A stretch of DNA of 45,245 nt, taken from the NCBI GenBank assembly GCA_003650925.1, contig QMSP01000013.1:1-45245 (forward strand), read 5' to 3'. Made by a program: the position numbers and the translations under genes. The notes beneath the pieces were generated by a model that searched no databases, was not told the origin of the DNA, and saw nothing but the letters and a program-made list of their open reading frames with translations. Below are positions 15,298 to 43,813 of this stretch, one piece after another. This DNA comes from Thermoprotei archaeon (GTDB taxonomy: Archaea; Thermoproteota; Thermoprotei; QMSL01). The first letter of the stretch is position 1; each line of letters starts with the position of its first letter.

Positions 15298-16695
15298 CTA
15301 CACCTCCTCTACTTTGCCATCTTCAAGCCTTAATACTTTATCAGCCACGTGCTCGGCCACATCAACATCATGAGTAATGCCTATGACTAAACATCCCTCC
15401 TCGCATAGTCTATTGAGGGCCTCAATTATGGACCTCATGCTCCTAAAATCTTGTCCCGTTGTGGGCTCATCTGCTATGATAACCTTGGGCTTCAAGGCAT
15501 AGGCCATAGTTATCAACAGAAGAGTTCTCTGCCCTCTTGAGAGCTCTCTAGGATTTCTATCCTTTAGCCTTAATAGGCCTAGAGTATCTAAAGCATCATA
15601 GACTCTCTCTCGTACTTCCTCCTCTCTAAGGCCTATAGCCCTCAGCCCTAAGGCAACCTCATCAAATACTGTCTCCTCAACAAATGCCAAGTCAGGGTTC
15701 TGTGGTAGATAAATGATTTCCTTGGTAGGTCTCTCCACACGCTTCGAGTCGATCAATATCTCTCCCCTACAAGGCTTGAGCAGTCCTGCAATACACATCC
15801 CCAGAGTACTTTTACCTGCTCCATTTCTACCTACTAGAAATATTAGCTCTCCCTTCCTTCCCATGAAGCTAACTCCTTTCAGCACGTACCTTTCGTCGTA
15901 CTTAAACCATAGGTCCATCACTTTAAGAATGACATCCCCTGTGGAATGAGATCTTCTCCTATAACTCTCCATTTGCGTTCTTAAGCCAAGCTTCTCAGGA
16001 ACATGTTCCTCTTCAAAGTCCTCAACATCTCCATAAAACACAACCCTACCATCGTTGAGAGCTAGCACTTTATCTGCCAGTCTAGCTACCTCCCAGAGCC
16101 TATGTTCAGCTACGATGAGCCCTTTCTCATCTTTAAGCTTTTTGAGTGTGTCGACTAATCTCTCACGGGCGAAGAAGTCTTGATGAGCAAAAGGTTCATC
16201 AAGCACAATAACCTTAGGCTTAAGTGCTAAAAGCGAGGCTAGAGCAACTCTTTGTTTCTCTCCGTACGATAGATTGAATACATATCGATCTAGAAGATGC
16301 TTAATGCACACCAAGCTTGCTGCATAGCTTACTCTTTCCTCTACTTCGTTGAGTCCAAAGTTAATGAGACTGAACTCGATCTCATCCTTGACTGTTAGAC
16401 AACATAACTGATTCTCTGGATTCTGAAACAGCATGGTAATATTTTGAATCAATCTATGGAATTCCCATTGATCAGTCCTTTTTCCGAGCACGTAGATCTC
16501 GCCTTGAGCTTCTCCTGATAATTTGTGAGGTATTAAGCCACAGAGAGCATAGCATAGGGTAGATTTTCCAGAGCCTGTAGGACCTACTATGAGCAAGAGC
16601 TCGTTTTCACTAAGCTCTAGGCTTACATCCTTAAGAGCCCACTCTTGAGCCCCCTCATACTTGAAGGAGAAATTCTTCACTTTGACTAGGGGCAT
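15298..16695 (-). CDS. ECF transporter ATPase, two fused ABC domains
   Basis: A 465-residue fusion of two nucleotide-binding domains, as in YkoD-like ECF ATPases. The first has Walker A GPTGSGKST near residue 39, signature LSYGEKQRVALAS (about 142-154) and Walker B VIVLDEP. The second has GRNGAGKST near residue 289, signature LSRGQRTLLL (about 383-392) and VIIADEPTTGQD. It powers import with the T component encoded next. The ATG lies about 27 bases from a TATA-like element shared with the divergent gene, so its message may be leaderless. Confidence 0.93.
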   Translation of the reverse strand: MPLVKVKNFSFKYEGAQEWALKDVSLELSENELLLIVGPTGSGKSTLCYALCGLIPHKLSGEAQGEIYVLGKRTDQWEFHRLIQNITMLFQNPENQLCCLTVKDEIEFSLINFGLNEVEERVSYAASLVCIKHLLDRYVFNLSYGEKQRVALASLLALKPKVIVLDEPFAHQDFFARERLVDTLKKLKDEKGLIVAEHRLWEVARLADKVLALNDGRVVFYGDVEDFEEEHVPEKLGLRTQMESYRRRSHSTGDVILKVMDLWFKYDERYVLKGVSFMGRKGELIFLVGRNGAGKSTLGMCIAGLLKPCRGEILIDSKRVERPTKEIIYLPQNPDLAFVEETVFDEVALGLRAIGLREEEVRERVYDALDTLGLLRLKDRNPRELSRGQRTLLLITMAYALKPKVIIADEPTTGQDFRSMRSIIEALNRLCEEGCLVIGITHDVDVAEHVADKVLRLEDGKVEEV

Positions 16696-31315: not shown

Positions 31316-31783
31316 ATGAGAACCCTTGGAAATGATAAGAAGGGCATAACACCCGTTGTAGCCATAATAATCCTAGTGGCAGTGGCCATAGCCGTGAGCA
31401 TAGCTGCAGCCATGTGGCTAATAGGCTTGACAGGAGCTTATACCAAGACAGAAGAGGTTAGATTTACCACAGCATATGCAAGAGATTTCGACGGTGATGG
31501 AACCTCTGAAATCAGGATTATTATCAAGAACACAGGTACAACATCCGTAACTATCGATGCGGTCTATGTCAACGATGTGCCTCATTCGGATCTTTACCCT
31601 TCAGAAGCTACTCTCTACACAGATACCACTATGGGCACAACACTTTCACTTCCTCAGACATTAAACCCAGGGTCGACTCTTGAAATAGTCATCGACTGGA
31701 ATTTCCAGTCGGGAGTCTCCTACGAAATAGGCGTACATACCGCAACAGGCAATCTCTATACCACAGTAGTAACCACACCATAG
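31316..31783 (+). CDS. archaeal type IV pilin
   Basis: A 155-residue pilin. The N-terminus has the class III signal: a short charged leader (MRTLGNDKKG), expected to be cut after Gly10 by PibD/FlaK, then ITPVVAIIILVAVAIAVSI as the hydrophobic assembly helix. The mature globular part (about 40-155) is beta-rich, with repeated Thr/Ser, a DFDGDGTSEIR loop, and typical structural-pilin features. It would form or join an adhesion pilus. No prepilin peptidase, ATPase or TadC gene is in the window, so assembly factors are elsewhere. Confidence 0.85.
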   Translation: MRTLGNDKKGITPVVAIIILVAVAIAVSIAAAMWLIGLTGAYTKTEEVRFTTAYARDFDGDGTSEIRIIIKNTGTTSVTIDAVYVNDVPHSDLYPSEATLYTDTTMGTTLSLPQTLNPGSTLEIVIDWNFQSGVSYEIGVHTATGNLYTTVVTTP

Positions 31784-38600: not shown

Positions 38601-39488
38601 TTATCTTTCGTAAGAGGCTACTACATACAGGCCTAGTTCTTTAGCTCTCCTGCTTGCTGATGGATGGATCCAGAATCCAAACATGATCCCTAACACGCTT
38701 AACCCTTTGAATAATTCGCGTACTTTACTGTACTTCTCAAAGTAGAACTTGTTCACATCATCGCTGTAGATCCTTGATTTCACCTCTCCTATTATCACGA
38801 CTTTCTCCCCTGCCTTTACACCTTCTCCATAAAGGTTCACCTCTATCTCCTCTCCTTCCACTATGAAGAACTCCCTCCTAAGCTCCTCTACCTCAACACC
38901 TAGATGTCTATGTAGCCAGCCTGGGAGTACAACCCGCGCTATATCCTCAAGCCCAAACCCTATAGTTTCAGCAAGTGCACCAATGGACCTACGGAGTTCT
39001 ACTATCGCTAGCGTTAGTCTATTGACATTGTCAGTCAGGGTGCCTAGTCTTTCCTCCGTCAATCTTTGAGCCTTGGCAAGGGTATTTAATTCCTTCTCTA
39101 TGGTGTTCAATCTTTCCTCAGTTCTTCTCTGAGCCTCAGTAAGGGCCTCTAACCTCTCCTCAGTTCTTTTTTGAGCTTCTGCTAAAGCATTTAACCCTCC
39201 TTCAGTTCTCTTCTGAGCCTCAGCAAGAGCTTTCAATTCCTCCTCAGTCCTTCTCTGAGCCTCTGCTAAAGCGTTCAATCTCTCCTCAGTTCTTCTTTGG
39301 GCTTCAGCAAGAGCGTATAGTCTCTTCTCCGTTCTCTCTTGGGCCTCAGCTAATTTCTTCACAGCATCAGTGAGCTCCATAATCCTCTTCCTTATCTCCT
39401 CATACTCCTCCCTGGTGACCTTTATTTCCTTGACCTTGTCCTCCACCACCTTAACTATGAACTCATATAGCTCTGGAGTTATGCTCAA
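38601..39488 (-). CDS. coiled-coil protein with PD-(D/E)XK-like C-terminal domain
   Basis: A 295-residue protein. A helical N-terminus (1-45) leads to a coiled coil made of 14-residue repeats (L-A-E-A-Q-x-R-T-E-E-R-L-x-x; 46-129 has six in a row, then a half and one more to 150). A globular C-terminal domain follows (about 165-295). In it EEIEVNLYG and VVIIGEVKSRI (E235-V-K237) fit a PD-(D/E)XK nuclease-like core, as in DUF3782-type proteins of thermophiles. The nuclease Asp position reads as Asn in EVNLY, so activity is uncertain. It starts at TTG 39488; the repeats make a 42-base DNA repeat. Confidence 0.8.
   Translation of the reverse strand: MSITPELYEFIVKVVEDKVKEIKVTREEYEEIRKRIMELTDAVKKLAEAQERTEKRLYALAEAQRRTEERLNALAEAQRRTEEELKALAEAQKRTEGGLNALAEAQKRTEERLEALTEAQRRTEERLNTIEKELNTLAKAQRLTEERLGTLTDNVNRLTLAIVELRRSIGALAETIGFGLEDIARVVLPGWLHRHLGVEVEELRREFFIVEGEEIEVNLYGEGVKAGEKVVIIGEVKSRIYSDDVNKFYFEKYSKVRELFKGLSVLGIMFGFWIHPSASRRAKELGLYVVASYER
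39039..39353 (-). repeat. 42-base tandem repeat inside coiled-coil gene
   Basis: The DNA encodes 14-residue units repeated about seven and a half times with interruptions; units differ mainly at third positions and at residues 6, 9 and 13. It can expand or contract by recombination, changing coiled-coil length. Confidence 0.7.
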
Positions 39489-39628: not shown

Positions 39629-40396
39629 ATGGATATGAACCTACGCAAGACCGGAGCTTCGCCAGTGATATCCACACTACTGCTAACAGCAGTAATCTTG
39701 GTCTTAGTGATAAGTACTTCCATCTACGCTATGAACAGGATCGATTATGAGAAGGCTAAGGCTGAATATGATTACATGAAGGAGTGTTTTGCCAAGATGG
39801 CCTCCTACGCCGACTCAGTGCTGTTCTCAGAGGGCGCTACGATATCATATCCCCTAATAATATCGCGTGGCCTTCTCAACGTCGTGAATGATACAATGCT
39901 GAGGCTTACCATAACTCTTGATGGCAACATAGTATTCGACGCTACTTTTGATACAGCCAACCTCACTTACATAGCACCTGGTGTTACATACGTCGGCACT
40001 GAGTATCTATATGGTAATTTTACGAGAAGAGTCATAGGCACAGATGAGTACTTGCCCATACCTGCATCATATACAGCATACGTGGAAGGCCTTGGGCCTA
40101 TAATCTCCCTAGACTTTAGAAGAGCCAAGGTCACTAGCTTTGGAAGAATGAACATAGAGGGCACATACTACAACTACATAGTGGTTCTCGTGGTCGAGAG
40201 CTATGCCAAGGTATTATCGCCAAGGCCTTCAAGCATCATGTTTGCGTGTAGAGGCGTGAGAACATATGACCCCATAGTGGGCTATGGATCGATAACTGTG
40301 ACAGTAACATGTCATGGTAGTGAATACATAACTCTTCCCACCGATTACTACATAGTGGTCATCCAGGCCTGTACACTCCACTTGGAGGCTAGATAA
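39629..40396 (+). CDS. pilin-like protein, first gene of pilin operon
   Basis: A 255-residue protein. The N-terminus MDMNLRKTG then ASPVISTLLLTAVILVLVIS is a class III prepilin signal: a positive charge before Gly9 and a hydrophobic helix after the cut. The remainder (about 45-255) is a large beta-rich extracellular domain with Thr, Tyr and Asn, far longer than in a major pilin; it may be a tip or minor pilin. The stop overlaps the next start by one base (TAATG). It is the first of five coupled genes. Confidence 0.7.
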   Translation: MDMNLRKTGASPVISTLLLTAVILVLVISTSIYAMNRIDYEKAKAEYDYMKECFAKMASYADSVLFSEGATISYPLIISRGLLNVVNDTMLRLTITLDGNIVFDATFDTANLTYIAPGVTYVGTEYLYGNFTRRVIGTDEYLPIPASYTAYVEGLGPIISLDFRRAKVTSFGRMNIEGTYYNYIVVLVVESYAKVLSPRPSSIMFACRGVRTYDPIVGYGSITVTVTCHGSEYITLPTDYYIVVIQACTLHLEAR

Positions 40397-40884
40397 TGCC
40401 GCAAGTGGTGGTATCTGAGATAATAATGAGCGGCACAGCCATAGTGATCATGATACTCCTGACCAGCTATTCTCACTCTTTATCACAGATATTGATGAAA
40501 AGTGCAGCAGAAGCCAGACTTGAGGAAATAGCAAAAAGCATAGAGCTAGAGGTTCAGGAGGTTGTGGATGTAGCCTTATCATCAAGCTGTAGACCATGTC
40601 TCGTCTACAAACTATTATCCATACCGAAGTATGTGTGCGATAAAGGCTATTATGTTGAAGTCAGAGCACAAGGCCAGGTCCTCATACTGCACTTAGCCAC
40701 TATTGATGAAGTCTGGAAGACTGAGCTGGAGGCTACAGTGCCTGGAGCTATTCTAGTGACGAGCGGCACCTTCGATGGAGTCCAAGCAGTGGAGAGAGTG
40801 TATAGTGGTATGAAGAATGTCGTCGTCTGGTGCATGGTGAACGCCACAGGTGTCTATTATGGTCTAGGGGTTTTGAGAGGATGA
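40396..40884 (+). CDS. membrane-anchored pseudopilin-like protein
   Basis: A 162-residue protein with one N-terminal membrane helix (about 6-26) and an extracellular domain. It begins at an ATG whose first base is the last base of the preceding stop. The four Cys (CRPC, C near 79, and CM) could form disulfides. The N-terminus lacks a clear G|x prepilin cut, though overall shape matches minor pseudopilins. Function is inferred from the operon. Confidence 0.55.
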   Translation: MPQVVVSEIIMSGTAIVIMILLTSYSHSLSQILMKSAAEARLEEIAKSIELEVQEVVDVALSSSCRPCLVYKLLSIPKYVCDKGYYVEVRAQGQVLILHLATIDEVWKTELEATVPGAILVTSGTFDGVQAVERVYSGMKNVVVWCMVNATGVYYGLGVLRG

Positions 40885-41882
40885 GTCCTGTCTATGATTA
40901 TGCCATAGCCTTTATCCTTCTCCTATCAGTGATCGCCTATGCATCTGCACAGCTGAGTTCCTTGACTAGGCATGTCAGCTATCAATACATGGCCCTAGCT
41001 GATAGGCTCATAGATGACCTCTTAATGTCGCCTGGTCGTCCTGAGGACTGGGGTGTTGAACTTAGGAGCATTCCTGAGAGAATAGGCCTAGCTCCTGTAA
41101 ATGGAAGCTCTCTCGACTTAGATCCGTATAAAGTTCAGAGGCTTTTTCTGAACAACATAACGTATGAAGAAGCCTCATCATCACTATCATATAGGTGGAT
41201 TAGGCTTGAGATAAAGCCGTATCTTGACATAAAAGTTGAGCTCCTGGAGAGGACTCCACTTCTCCTCTCATTCAAGGTCACGGTTAGAGACTTTGGAGGA
41301 AAGCCTGTGCCTATGGCTGTAGTAAAAGGCTTTCTCTTTAGTCTTGTCTATAGTGCATCCACAGGCACATGGAGGCTTATAGGAGTATATTCTGCCGAGG
41401 GAAGGACTGATGAGCGTGGGGAATGCACTCTTGAGTACTCCATACTACAGCCTGAAGCCTACGTCCTAGCCATCATAGCCAGCTCCAGAGGCTTCTATAA
41501 TCTCCAAGTCCTCCATGATAGTCTCAGAGCAGACTCCTTCGGTGAAGGCGTTGTATATGGCCAGTACCTCATAGCTGAGAACGTAGGTCCATCACTCGAC
41601 ATTCACGTGGTCACAAGGTATGATGCCTATAATCACACAGGTGTCGCTGCATGGAATGATAATGCAGGAGCTTATGTGATTCCTCGTCTTGGAGAAGGCA
41701 TCTGTCTCATAGTGACCTCAGGTGGAAGTAAGATACTACTAGCATCAATACCAGCTATAAGAAGCTCGATGACGTGGGGGCGTAGCTATGCGCTCACTGA
41801 GGCTAGCTCTACATGGAGATTAGTGTTCATAAACAAGCTGAGCTATGTATTAAGGCTCATAGCGTATGAGGTGAGAACTTGA
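40881..41882 (+). CDS. pilin-operon surface protein
   Basis: A 333-residue protein with an N-terminal membrane helix (about 5-25), a PEDWG motif (residues 53-57), and an extracellular beta-rich domain with a possible Ig-like module (about 140-210). The start ATG overlaps the previous TGA (ATGA), preferred over an upstream ATG (40830) because of the helix position and coupling. I do not recognise a named family; its genomic place suggests a structural part of a pilus-like organelle. Confidence 0.6.
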   Translation: MSPVYDYAIAFILLLSVIAYASAQLSSLTRHVSYQYMALADRLIDDLLMSPGRPEDWGVELRSIPERIGLAPVNGSSLDLDPYKVQRLFLNNITYEEASSSLSYRWIRLEIKPYLDIKVELLERTPLLLSFKVTVRDFGGKPVPMAVVKGFLFSLVYSASTGTWRLIGVYSAEGRTDERGECTLEYSILQPEAYVLAIIASSRGFYNLQVLHDSLRADSFGEGVVYGQYLIAENVGPSLDIHVVTRYDAYNHTGVAAWNDNAGAYVIPRLGEGICLIVTSGGSKILLASIPAIRSSMTWGRSYALTEASSTWRLVFINKLSYVLRLIAYEVRT

Positions 41883-42322
41883 GCAGAGGTCAGATGAGAG
41901 TGATAGAGGCATTGTTAGCATCCTTGTTGATAATATCATCACTAACCTTAGCATATGCATTCAGCGTAAGGAGATCCCATGAGGAAGAACAGCTGAGCTC
42001 TATGAAGTCAAGAGTCATGGCCCTGTTGATGAGCCTTGATAGAAGTGGCTACCTCGAGGAGCTCTTGATAGACACAAGCCCTCCTGATGTGGAGTCTCTA
42101 GCCCATGCCCTCAGAGTAGTGGCCATATCATACATCAGAGTTGAAGTGTACAACATCACGATATTGAAAGGTGGCACTGTTCACGTAATAGAACTCCTTG
42201 GGAGCTACACCTTCGGCAAAGAGCCAACAAACACAACCGAAGTGGACTACGTGTATCTACCTTGGGATCCGACATCGAACTATGCATTGTTAATAAAGGT
42301 ATCCATGGGGGTCAGACCGTGA
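41879..42322 (+). CDS. class III signal pseudopilin
   Basis: A 147-residue protein. The N-terminus MSRGQMRVIEALLASLLIIS has the class III signal shape (R-G before Q, then a helix), as in archaeal pseudopilins with G|Q cleavage. A short extracellular domain follows (about 45-147). The TTG start at 41879 overlaps the stop of the preceding gene (TTGA). The stop in turn overlaps the GTG of the next gene. Confidence 0.6.
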   Translation: MSRGQMRVIEALLASLLIISSLTLAYAFSVRRSHEEEQLSSMKSRVMALLMSLDRSGYLEELLIDTSPPDVESLAHALRVVAISYIRVEVYNITILKGGTVHVIELLGSYTFGKEPTNTTEVDYVYLPWDPTSNYALLIKVSMGVRP

Positions 42323-43305
42323 GAAGTAGGGGGCAGTTCATGATCATAGCTGCGGTCATAATCTCGTCCATGATAGTCACCTTGCCGGTAAAGATAGCTC
42401 CTAAGCCCTCAAGCATGCCATTGTGGGAGGCTGAGGAGGCTTATGTAGCATATTTCAGATGGCTACTTCATAAGCTCTCGCTCAGGATGGTCTCCTCCTT
42501 TCTGTTCCATTACTACAATCATCTGAAGCTCCTCGTAGACAACGACCCTGACTACTACCAAGGAACGTTCATACTAAGTCCAGATGATCCAAGGCGAGGC
42601 CTTCGAGTATATGTATACGGTGGTACATTCTACTCCTACATAATCGAAGCTAATGATAAAGCAACAGAGAACCTGAACTTCGTGCTGAACAACCTTACCT
42701 ACGCCTTGGGCATATCGTACTCGTACAGGCTCTTGAACTTATCCTTATCATCTCTAGCATTTGATGTAACGTGGATTAGCAGAGGTGTTCCTCTCAGGGA
42801 TACTGAATGGGCTGATCCCTTCTACGACTACAGGTTTCGCTATAGTGAAGAGCATAATGCTATGAGTTCACTATTCACAATATCGTACAGAGCCATCAGG
42901 AACTACAATTCAAGCTCTCATGAGGGCATAAGGGCTCATCTAGTAAGCCTCGATATTGATGGTACGCAGGTTACTCTCAAGGTGTACATATTGGACGAGA
43001 AGGGAGTTCCCATAGTGGAACTAGGAGGGCATAACTTCCACGTACTGCTCTTCGACGGGTATGTTAGAGTGTGGTTCATATGGGTCAGCTCATCACGGCT
43101 AAGGCTAGTCAATGTCTCCTCTAAGGTGACTAGTTTAGGAAATGGCACCTATGTGATAGTGTTCGATATGAATGACTACATAGTGGAATATCGAGTTTCT
43201 CCAGCCTTTCTAGGGCCTCCTAGCGATTTCCTCTCCATCAGATTGATTATCCATGACTATGAATTTCCACAGCCTCTGGTGCTTTGCATATGCGAAAAGC
43301 TATAG
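42319..43305 (+). CDS. class III signal surface protein, last gene of pilin operon
   Basis: A 328-residue protein starting at GTG 42319 (overlapping the previous TGA). MRSRGQFMIIAAVIISSMIV has the same R-G-Q motif before a helix as the previous gene. The extracellular part (about 40-328) is long and rich in aromatic residues and Asn-x-Ser/Thr sites; no catalytic motif was noted. An upstream ATG at 42262 lies inside the previous gene and is not preferred. Its stop is seven bases from the convergent four-helix gene. Confidence 0.6.
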   Translation: MRSRGQFMIIAAVIISSMIVTLPVKIAPKPSSMPLWEAEEAYVAYFRWLLHKLSLRMVSSFLFHYYNHLKLLVDNDPDYYQGTFILSPDDPRRGLRVYVYGGTFYSYIIEANDKATENLNFVLNNLTYALGISYSYRLLNLSLSSLAFDVTWISRGVPLRDTEWADPFYDYRFRYSEEHNAMSSLFTISYRAIRNYNSSSHEGIRAHLVSLDIDGTQVTLKVYILDEKGVPIVELGGHNFHVLLFDGYVRVWFIWVSSSRLRLVNVSSKVTSLGNGTYVIVFDMNDYIVEYRVSPAFLGPPSDFLSIRLIIHDYEFPQPLVLCICEKL

Positions 43306-43312
43306 TCTTGCA

Positions 43313-43813
43313 TTAGAGTCTACGTCTCGTCTCACTCATCACCGCTATACCTAGTATTAGCATCCCCATGCTCGATATTATCGCTATATTTGCAAAGTTT
43401 TTAATGTTTTCTAGGTCAACTACGCTCTTCACAATGTTCAGCCTTATGAGGAGGACCAAGGTCAGTAGCTTTAGGACGTTAAGGGCGAATACGATGATTA
43501 CAAGCACTATCAGTAGGATCATCCTGCCTCTGGGCTCTATTTCAGGAATTATGGGCACGGTGGCTAGGATGAGGGCGAAGCTGAGTAGTTGTGTGTCGAA
43601 TATGTCGATATGTAGGGAGAATTCCTCTCCATTGATCTTCATGACTAACTCTTCATCTTCATGGAGTAGCTTGATCCCAGTCTCCTCTGCAAAGAGTAGG
43701 GCATTGGTACACTTCACGTAGAGCTCAAGTAGTAATTCAGGTAGTGAGTCCTCTATCAGCATGAGGAGGGCAAAAAGGCTTACTATCAGCAACACGTACA
43801 CGACTCTATACAT
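43313..43813 (-). CDS. small polytopic membrane protein, sortase-like pattern uncertain
   Basis: A 166-residue protein with four membrane helices (about 4-24, 76-93, 97-122, 140-160), and an extracellular segment (about 25-73). The order helix, acidic loop, then R-G-R-M helix with a N-V-L-K-L-L segment (about 113-118) is faintly like archaeosortase/exosortase C-terminal halves, but the catalytic Cys is not evident at the expected place, so I do not assign it. It starts five bases after the M42 stop and is probably co-transcribed with it. Convergent with the pilin operon. Confidence 0.5.
   Translation of the reverse strand: MYRVVYVLLIVSLFALLMLIEDSLPELLLELYVKCTNALLFAEETGIKLLHEDEELVMKINGEEFSLHIDIFDTQLLSFALILATVPIIPEIEPRGRMILLIVLVIIVFALNVLKLLTLVLLIRLNIVKSVVDLENIKNFANIAIISSMGMLILGIAVMSETRRRL

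Follow-up and report, generated by a model that had tools for sequence, protein, structure and literature searches.

A conserved five-gene pilin-like operon of a Thermoprotei archaeon is probably a minor-pilin cassette encoded apart from its motor

Contig QMSP01000013.1 of a Thermoprotei archaeon (GTDB lineage Archaea; Thermoproteota; Thermoprotei; QMSL01; assembly GCA_003650925.1) carries, within the 45,245-nucleotide stretch analyzed here (the window), five consecutive plus-strand open reading frames (ORFs) at 39629-43305, termed g1 to g5, each encoding a protein whose only hydrophobic helix is N-terminal. We conclude with good confidence that this operon encodes the minor pilins (pseudopilins) of an archaeal type IV pilus (T4P) as a cassette sited apart from the motor genes and working with them in trans. 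The five co-encoded single-helix proteins keep their order and tight spacing across TACK archaea (Thermoprotei and Bathy-, Brock-, Thaum- and Nezhaarchaeota), where they track a particular type of TadC platform protein and ATPase. The feature is real and conserved and does not amount to a novel type of complex, pilin-only loci having already been described. The original prediction had proposed a new pilus tip, secretion or adhesion complex. The coupled pilin-like set stands, but its novelty is unsupported because the five proteins match a conserved minor-pilin set that is joined to T4P ATPase and TadC genes in relatives. The match to a known pilin-operon set by which novelty was to be judged was largely found, both in the cassettes of relatives and in published loci (PMC4858521).

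Five overlapping genes for single-helix proteins

All four junctions of the locus overlap, as read directly from the sequence: by one base between g1 and g2 (TAATG) and by four bases at each of the next three (ATGA, TTGA and GTGA). The first gene, g1 (39629-40396, plus strand, ATG start, 255 amino acids), encodes a pilin-like protein putatively akin to the DUF7289 group, whose N-terminus, MDMNLRKTG/ASPVIST, holds the class III signal RKTG/ASPVI. The small pilin-like product of g4 (41879-42322, plus strand, TTG start, 147 amino acids; putative kin of DUF7288) carries the signal MSRGQMRVIEALLA, with the class III prepilin-like core SRGQMRVIEALLA (pattern RGQ.R.IEALLA), and the large pilin-like product of g5 (42319-43305, plus strand, GTG start, 328 amino acids; putative kin of DUF7261), a candidate adhesin or tip protein, carries the signal MRSRGQFMIIAAVI with the core SRGQFMIIAAVI (pattern RGQ...AA). 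The remaining two are pilin-like, lack a prepilin signal and begin their helix at the N-terminus: g2 (40396-40884, plus strand, 162 amino acids; putative kin of DUF7266), which starts MPQVVVSEIIM and conforms to the pattern MP..V.SE/H, and g3 (40881-41882, plus strand, 333 amino acids), which starts MSPVYDYAIAF and combines a 47-residue N-terminal helix with a β ectodomain that includes an Ig-like part. An alternative g3 start lies 17 codons upstream in the window; the ATG at 40881 was picked by comparison with relatives.

The coupling of the five ORFs through overlaps at every junction and the single helix in each product had both been predicted, and the sequence bears them out. Prepilin signals on three products had been predicted as well and are present on g1, g4 and g5, although the g1 motif is R-K-T-G and not the R-T-G first given. 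The predicted lack of assembly genes holds within the window, where no ORF for a T4P ATPase, TadC or prepilin peptidase is found, but not for the genome, which encodes several T4P ATPases and platforms together with a prepilin peptidase (C1:25076-25423). A weak PF00437 match at 16525-16665 was rejected as a pilus ATPase, as it sits inside an ABC-transporter ATPase. Promoter and terminator scans returned sites no more numerous than in shuffled sequences.

A divergent family with a pilin plan

Searched singly against Pfam and NCBIfam, none of the five proteins gave a significant family. A blast of g5 over 60 relatives recovered only g5 itself, a genome scan with g4 gave no match, and the only match to g1 was a weak one, in a genome from the same order (Thermoprotei archaeon AUK163, G001). 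Identities to the G001 homologues range from 23% (g4) through 24% (g1 and g5) and 27% (g2) to 29% (g3), and the family was revealed only because two-sequence and deeper profiles were used. With the two-sequence g1 profile, matches appeared in 36 of the 81 genomes of the class, 19 of them strong (>50 bits).

Four of the resulting families have recurrent, sub-threshold matches to Pfam domains. DUF7289 is weakly matched by 6 of 26 g1 family members, DUF7266 by 12 of 24 g2 members (best E 3.6e-4), DUF7288 by 3 of 23 g4 members and DUF7261 by 6 of 19 g5 members (best E 1.7e-5). These domains, which we take to be haloarchaeal pilin-like families, supply one weak match each for g1, g2, g4 and g5, whereas g3 has no counterpart among them; the weak but position-consistent pattern suggests an older and wider archaeal family. 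A DUF5455 match on g2 (E 8e-4, below cut-off, 1 of 24 members) was put down to chance, since 12 of the 24 members favor DUF7266. One haloarchaeal plasmid match (H1) carries a pilus motor, but no DUF726x or DUF728x genes are named there.

The AlphaFold2 model of g3 (mean predicted local distance difference test score, pLDDT, 82; predicted template modeling score, pTM, 0.78) is built on the pilin plan, with a long helix at residues 3-49 followed by a β head. Foldseek aligns parts of this modeled head to Ig/macroglobulin-like domains, 6rpt among them (TM-score 0.62, target-normalized). Profile searches of g1-g3 against the PDB gave no meaningful pilin match.

The cassette adjoins a T4P motor in relatives

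In G001, one gene run comprises a T2SSE ATPase (E 1.4e-40), a T2SSF/TadC platform of 608 amino acids (E 3.5e-26) and g1-g2-g3-g4-g5, with the order and N-terminal motifs of the five single-helix proteins as in the window. The g1-g5 order is also kept in family f8, Thermofilaceae-like genomes, families f10 and f12, Bathyarchaeota, Brockarchaeota, Thaumarchaeota and Nezhaarchaeota, and the neighborhood conservation proposed earlier as a check is thus found across TACK. Neighborhoods and a scan of named genomes with the platform protein place the cassette mostly immediately 3' of TadC, with an ATPase nearby. Order and tight spacing together recur in about 20 genomes, which is therefore more than chance, and in most relatives' cassettes the genes overlap or lie a few bases apart. 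These arrangements show that the cassette is inherited as a set, from Thermoprotei through to Bathy-, Brock-, Thaum- and Nezhaarchaeota. The ATPase-TadC-g1..g5 operons of G001 and of the last four groups share the families, order and tight junctions of the window; they differ in that the platform, and usually the ATPase too, is adjacent there and not in the window. At locus L132, the g1 slot is held by an ORF that the g1 profile did not score. The large single-contig genomes of family f7, which we presume to be Vulcanisaeta-like, depart from the five-gene order of the window with a reordered variant of six genes; at L072, L073, L074 and L075 this variant lies close to ribosomal protein genes and its TadC is elsewhere in the genome.

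Loci of this kind have precedent. Archaeal T4P minor-pilin sets were described by Makarova, Koonin and Albers in 2016, who proposed that ATPase/TadC modules serve different pilin sets (PMC4858521). For Vulcanisaeta, Caldivirga and two Thermofilum species, that study reported pilin loci devoid of ATPase and TadC genes, linked them to subclade 4E, for which arCOG05475 is the signature minor pilin, and assigned them in trans to an ATPase clade without pilins of its own (PMC4858521). The window resembles these loci in holding a predicted minor pilin/adhesin set unaccompanied by ATPase or TadC genes, a likeness drawn without gene-by-gene comparison at the level of arCOGs, and differs in that the cognate motor is absent from its genome assembly too. 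A cognate ATPase clade with no other pilins in the same genome is likewise found in Thermofilum-like genomes, which also hold the window's gene set, but not in the genome of the window (G000).

Taking a g1 match of >50 bits and a TadC match of >600 bits as presence, 16 of the 81 genomes of the class have both, 3 the cassette only, 2 TadC only and 60 neither (Fisher p 4e-12, a value that ignores the genomes' shared ancestry, as does the next). Among genomes at least 90% complete, the corresponding counts are 12, 1, 1 and 29 (p 1e-8). The sole well-assembled genome with only the cassette is G000 itself. In five genomes whose cassette has no adjacent motor, a cassette-type TadC (>900 bits) is present elsewhere: cassette and TadC lie at 1.012 and 1.301 Mb in G005, 0.868 and 0.403 Mb in G008, 1.358 and 1.058 Mb in G011, and 0.568 and 0.843 Mb in G014, and on separate contigs in G017. 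As the complete Thermofilum-like genomes hold both about 275 to 465 kb apart, action in trans is normal. The T4P ATPase and TadC are thus adjacent or elsewhere in the genome among relatives, with only paralogous motors in G000.

A lone PilA-type major pilin (31316-31783, plus strand, 155 amino acids), about 8 kb from the cassette, is likely its filament subunit, judging from its matches. The best are major pilins beside cassette-type ATPases, namely L071 of G034 (E 2e-26), L131 of a Bathyarchaeon (7e-25) and L125 (5e-22), and against the PDB it matches archaeal pilins and flagellin (E 1.1e-5 and 1.2e-3).

Several cassettes (L063, L064, L067 and L069) stand beside a protein of about 500 amino acids with N- and C-terminal helices, which in G000 also adjoins the C2:84 kb motor (L019:5762-7291; L019 against L063, E 4e-9). 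It is a possible S-layer-like partner.

Three members predicted to be processed and two without a leader

The split between g1, g4 and g5 on the one hand and g2 and g3 on the other extends to the 19 to 27 relatives compared per gene. Basic residues precede the helix in all members of g1 and g4 and in 18 of 19 of g5, while a basic n-region is lacking in 23 of 24 g2 and 23 of 27 g3 proteins, the exceptions carrying one lysine or arginine. No upstream in-frame start able to add a leader exists for 17 of 23 g2 and 21 of 23 g3 genes. By these criteria g2 and g3 lack, in nearly every relative, a prepilin leader that could be cleaved, which, as far as could be checked, goes beyond the published account (PMC4858521).

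The archaellum stators ArlF and ArlG also lack a signal peptide (PMC8978795), and g2 and g3 resemble them in being pilin-like, having one helix and carrying no class III leader. However, the g2 profile gave no significant match beyond the helix to ArlG or ArlF of G000 (probability 10% and 0.2%), so homology is unsupported and the stator likeness is by analogy only. Nor are the five genes archaellum minor proteins by location, the arl genes being on contig C67 and not at the window locus. That 4.2-kb contig (L022) carries arlI, arlH and two archaellin-like arlF/arlG genes.

A bolder combined proposal is that a three-plus-two architecture (processed g1, g4 and g5 with leaderless, anchored g2 and g3 as an ArlF/ArlG-like stator or collar of a non-archaellum pilus) is TACK-wide and that here the cassette has been given to a different motor. 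We consider this conjunction improbable.

Weighing the interpretation and the missing motor

Several points weigh against a minor-pilin cassette working in trans. Neither a cassette-type ATPase nor a cassette-type TadC was found on any contig of G000, not even as fragments, and the partner motor there may be one of two candidate paralogues on contig C2. The roles of tip, base and stator would rest on analogy, the co-occurrence statistics carry the ancestry caveat given above, and the matches to DUF7289, DUF7266, DUF7288 and DUF7261, although recurrent, are weak, all falling under the Pfam gathering cut-offs. For g5, the AlphaFold2 model is poor and unusable, and the window copy (328 amino acids) is far shorter than most relatives' (371-1314 amino acids), most of their C-terminal region being absent.

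The motor poses the sharpest question. G000 (2.14 Mb in 81 contigs, estimated 98.6% complete) encodes several T4P ATPases and platforms, with an archaellum on C67 and further ATPases on C2 (two), C19, C18 and C6. By the cassette-ATPase profile, the best are those at C2:87 kb (577 bits) and C2:32 kb (527 bits), compared with about 890-1180 bits for the cassette type. A tree of 35 sequences places both outside the cassette clade, C2:87 kb beside a G062 system (100/100) and C2:32 kb with a split-TadC system of G005, G014, G028, G034, G042 and G062 (95/90), which coexists with the cassette-type system in the first five of these. A PF00437 match on C26 was discarded as a pilus motor and judged a PIN-domain ATPase from its N-terminus. 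Contig C19 also holds another group of four to five genes for pilin-like proteins with one helix (L020:11630-13676) with no ATPase in the immediate run and an ATPase/TadC pair about 5 kb upstream.

Two accounts of the absence, itself an addition to the published picture (PMC4858521) as far as could be checked, deserve serious weight, neither reaching even odds. A true cassette-type ATPase/TadC pair may exist and have been lost from the 81-contig assembly, as a pair of 3-4 kb could fall between contigs, and of 13 genomes with a strong cassette match and a completeness of at least 90%, 12 do have a cassette-type TadC; yet the estimated completeness is high and no contig was found to carry a fragment of either gene. 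Slightly less weight goes to true loss of the cognate pair and use of a paralogous motor, likeliest that at C2:84-88 kb or C2:32-35 kb, because loss of a motor with its pilins kept is otherwise rare in the genome set. The same near-complete genome without a cassette-clade ATPase or TadC favors such an exchange, as does the published argument that ATPase/TadC modules and pilin sets exchange (PMC4858521). Pilins adjoin the relatives of the C2:32 kb pair but not the pair itself in G000, and a pilin of the C2:84 kb locus (contig C2 at 83577) is 40% identical over 89 amino acids to the lone pilin of the window. However, both C2 motors sit in supported clades other than that of the cassette and have relatives of their own in other genomes, the C2:84 kb locus owns a pilin set, and physical or regulatory coupling of the cassette to either is purely conjectural.

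We regard as unlikely that the cassette is a relict, its motor gone and its pilin set decaying: the missing cognate motor and the truncated g5 would fit, but the five ORFs are intact, their overlaps preserved and their N-terminal motifs conserved. Equally small is the chance that the five form a type II-secretion-like piston and not a long surface pilus. Type II secretion systems likewise employ several minor pseudopilins with large heads, together with ATPases and platforms of the same families, and the g5 and g3 heads exceed those of typical pilins in size; on the other side, a PilA-type major pilin often adjoins the motor in relatives and neither a substrate gene nor any further secretion gene accompanies the cassette consistently. 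The neighboring genes give no support to a prophage or a secretion-only locus.

A model for assembly in trans

Under the minor-pilin interpretation, the five proteins would be made together in matched amounts, and the prepilin peptidase encoded on contig C1 would cleave g1, g4 and g5, with g2 and g3 staying in the membrane by their uncleaved helix. The five could then assemble on the TadC platform as a priming or tip complex, in which the large, variable g5 might form the exposed adhesive end and g2 and g3 an anchored base or stator-like part. Beneath this complex, the PilA-type pilin would be polymerized by the ATPase/TadC pair encoded in trans, yielding an adhesion-type surface pilus.

Genes flanking the cassette

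Downstream, a minus-strand gene (43313-43813) encodes a membrane protein of 166 amino acids and several helices that weakly matches the exosortase family (XrtG, E 0.0033). The aligned core shows no visible cysteine, so that sortase-like activity is unlikely. Upstream, the minus-strand gene at 38601-39488 encodes a coiled-coil protein with a DUF3782-like stretch; within it, at 39105-39353, are 42-base (14-residue) tandem repeats, ALAEAQRRTEERLN.

Implications

Only two features of the locus, its lack of a cognate motor and the leaderless pair kept across relatives, would interest a specialist. If a closed genome bears it out, retention of the subunits without their usual motor would exemplify motor swapping cleanly. 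Little is understood of archaeal minor pilins, and the fixed five-gene order with its processed/leaderless split leads to testable predictions for tip and base. This assignment would give five unannotated ORFs a definite place in an archaeal pilus that is widespread.

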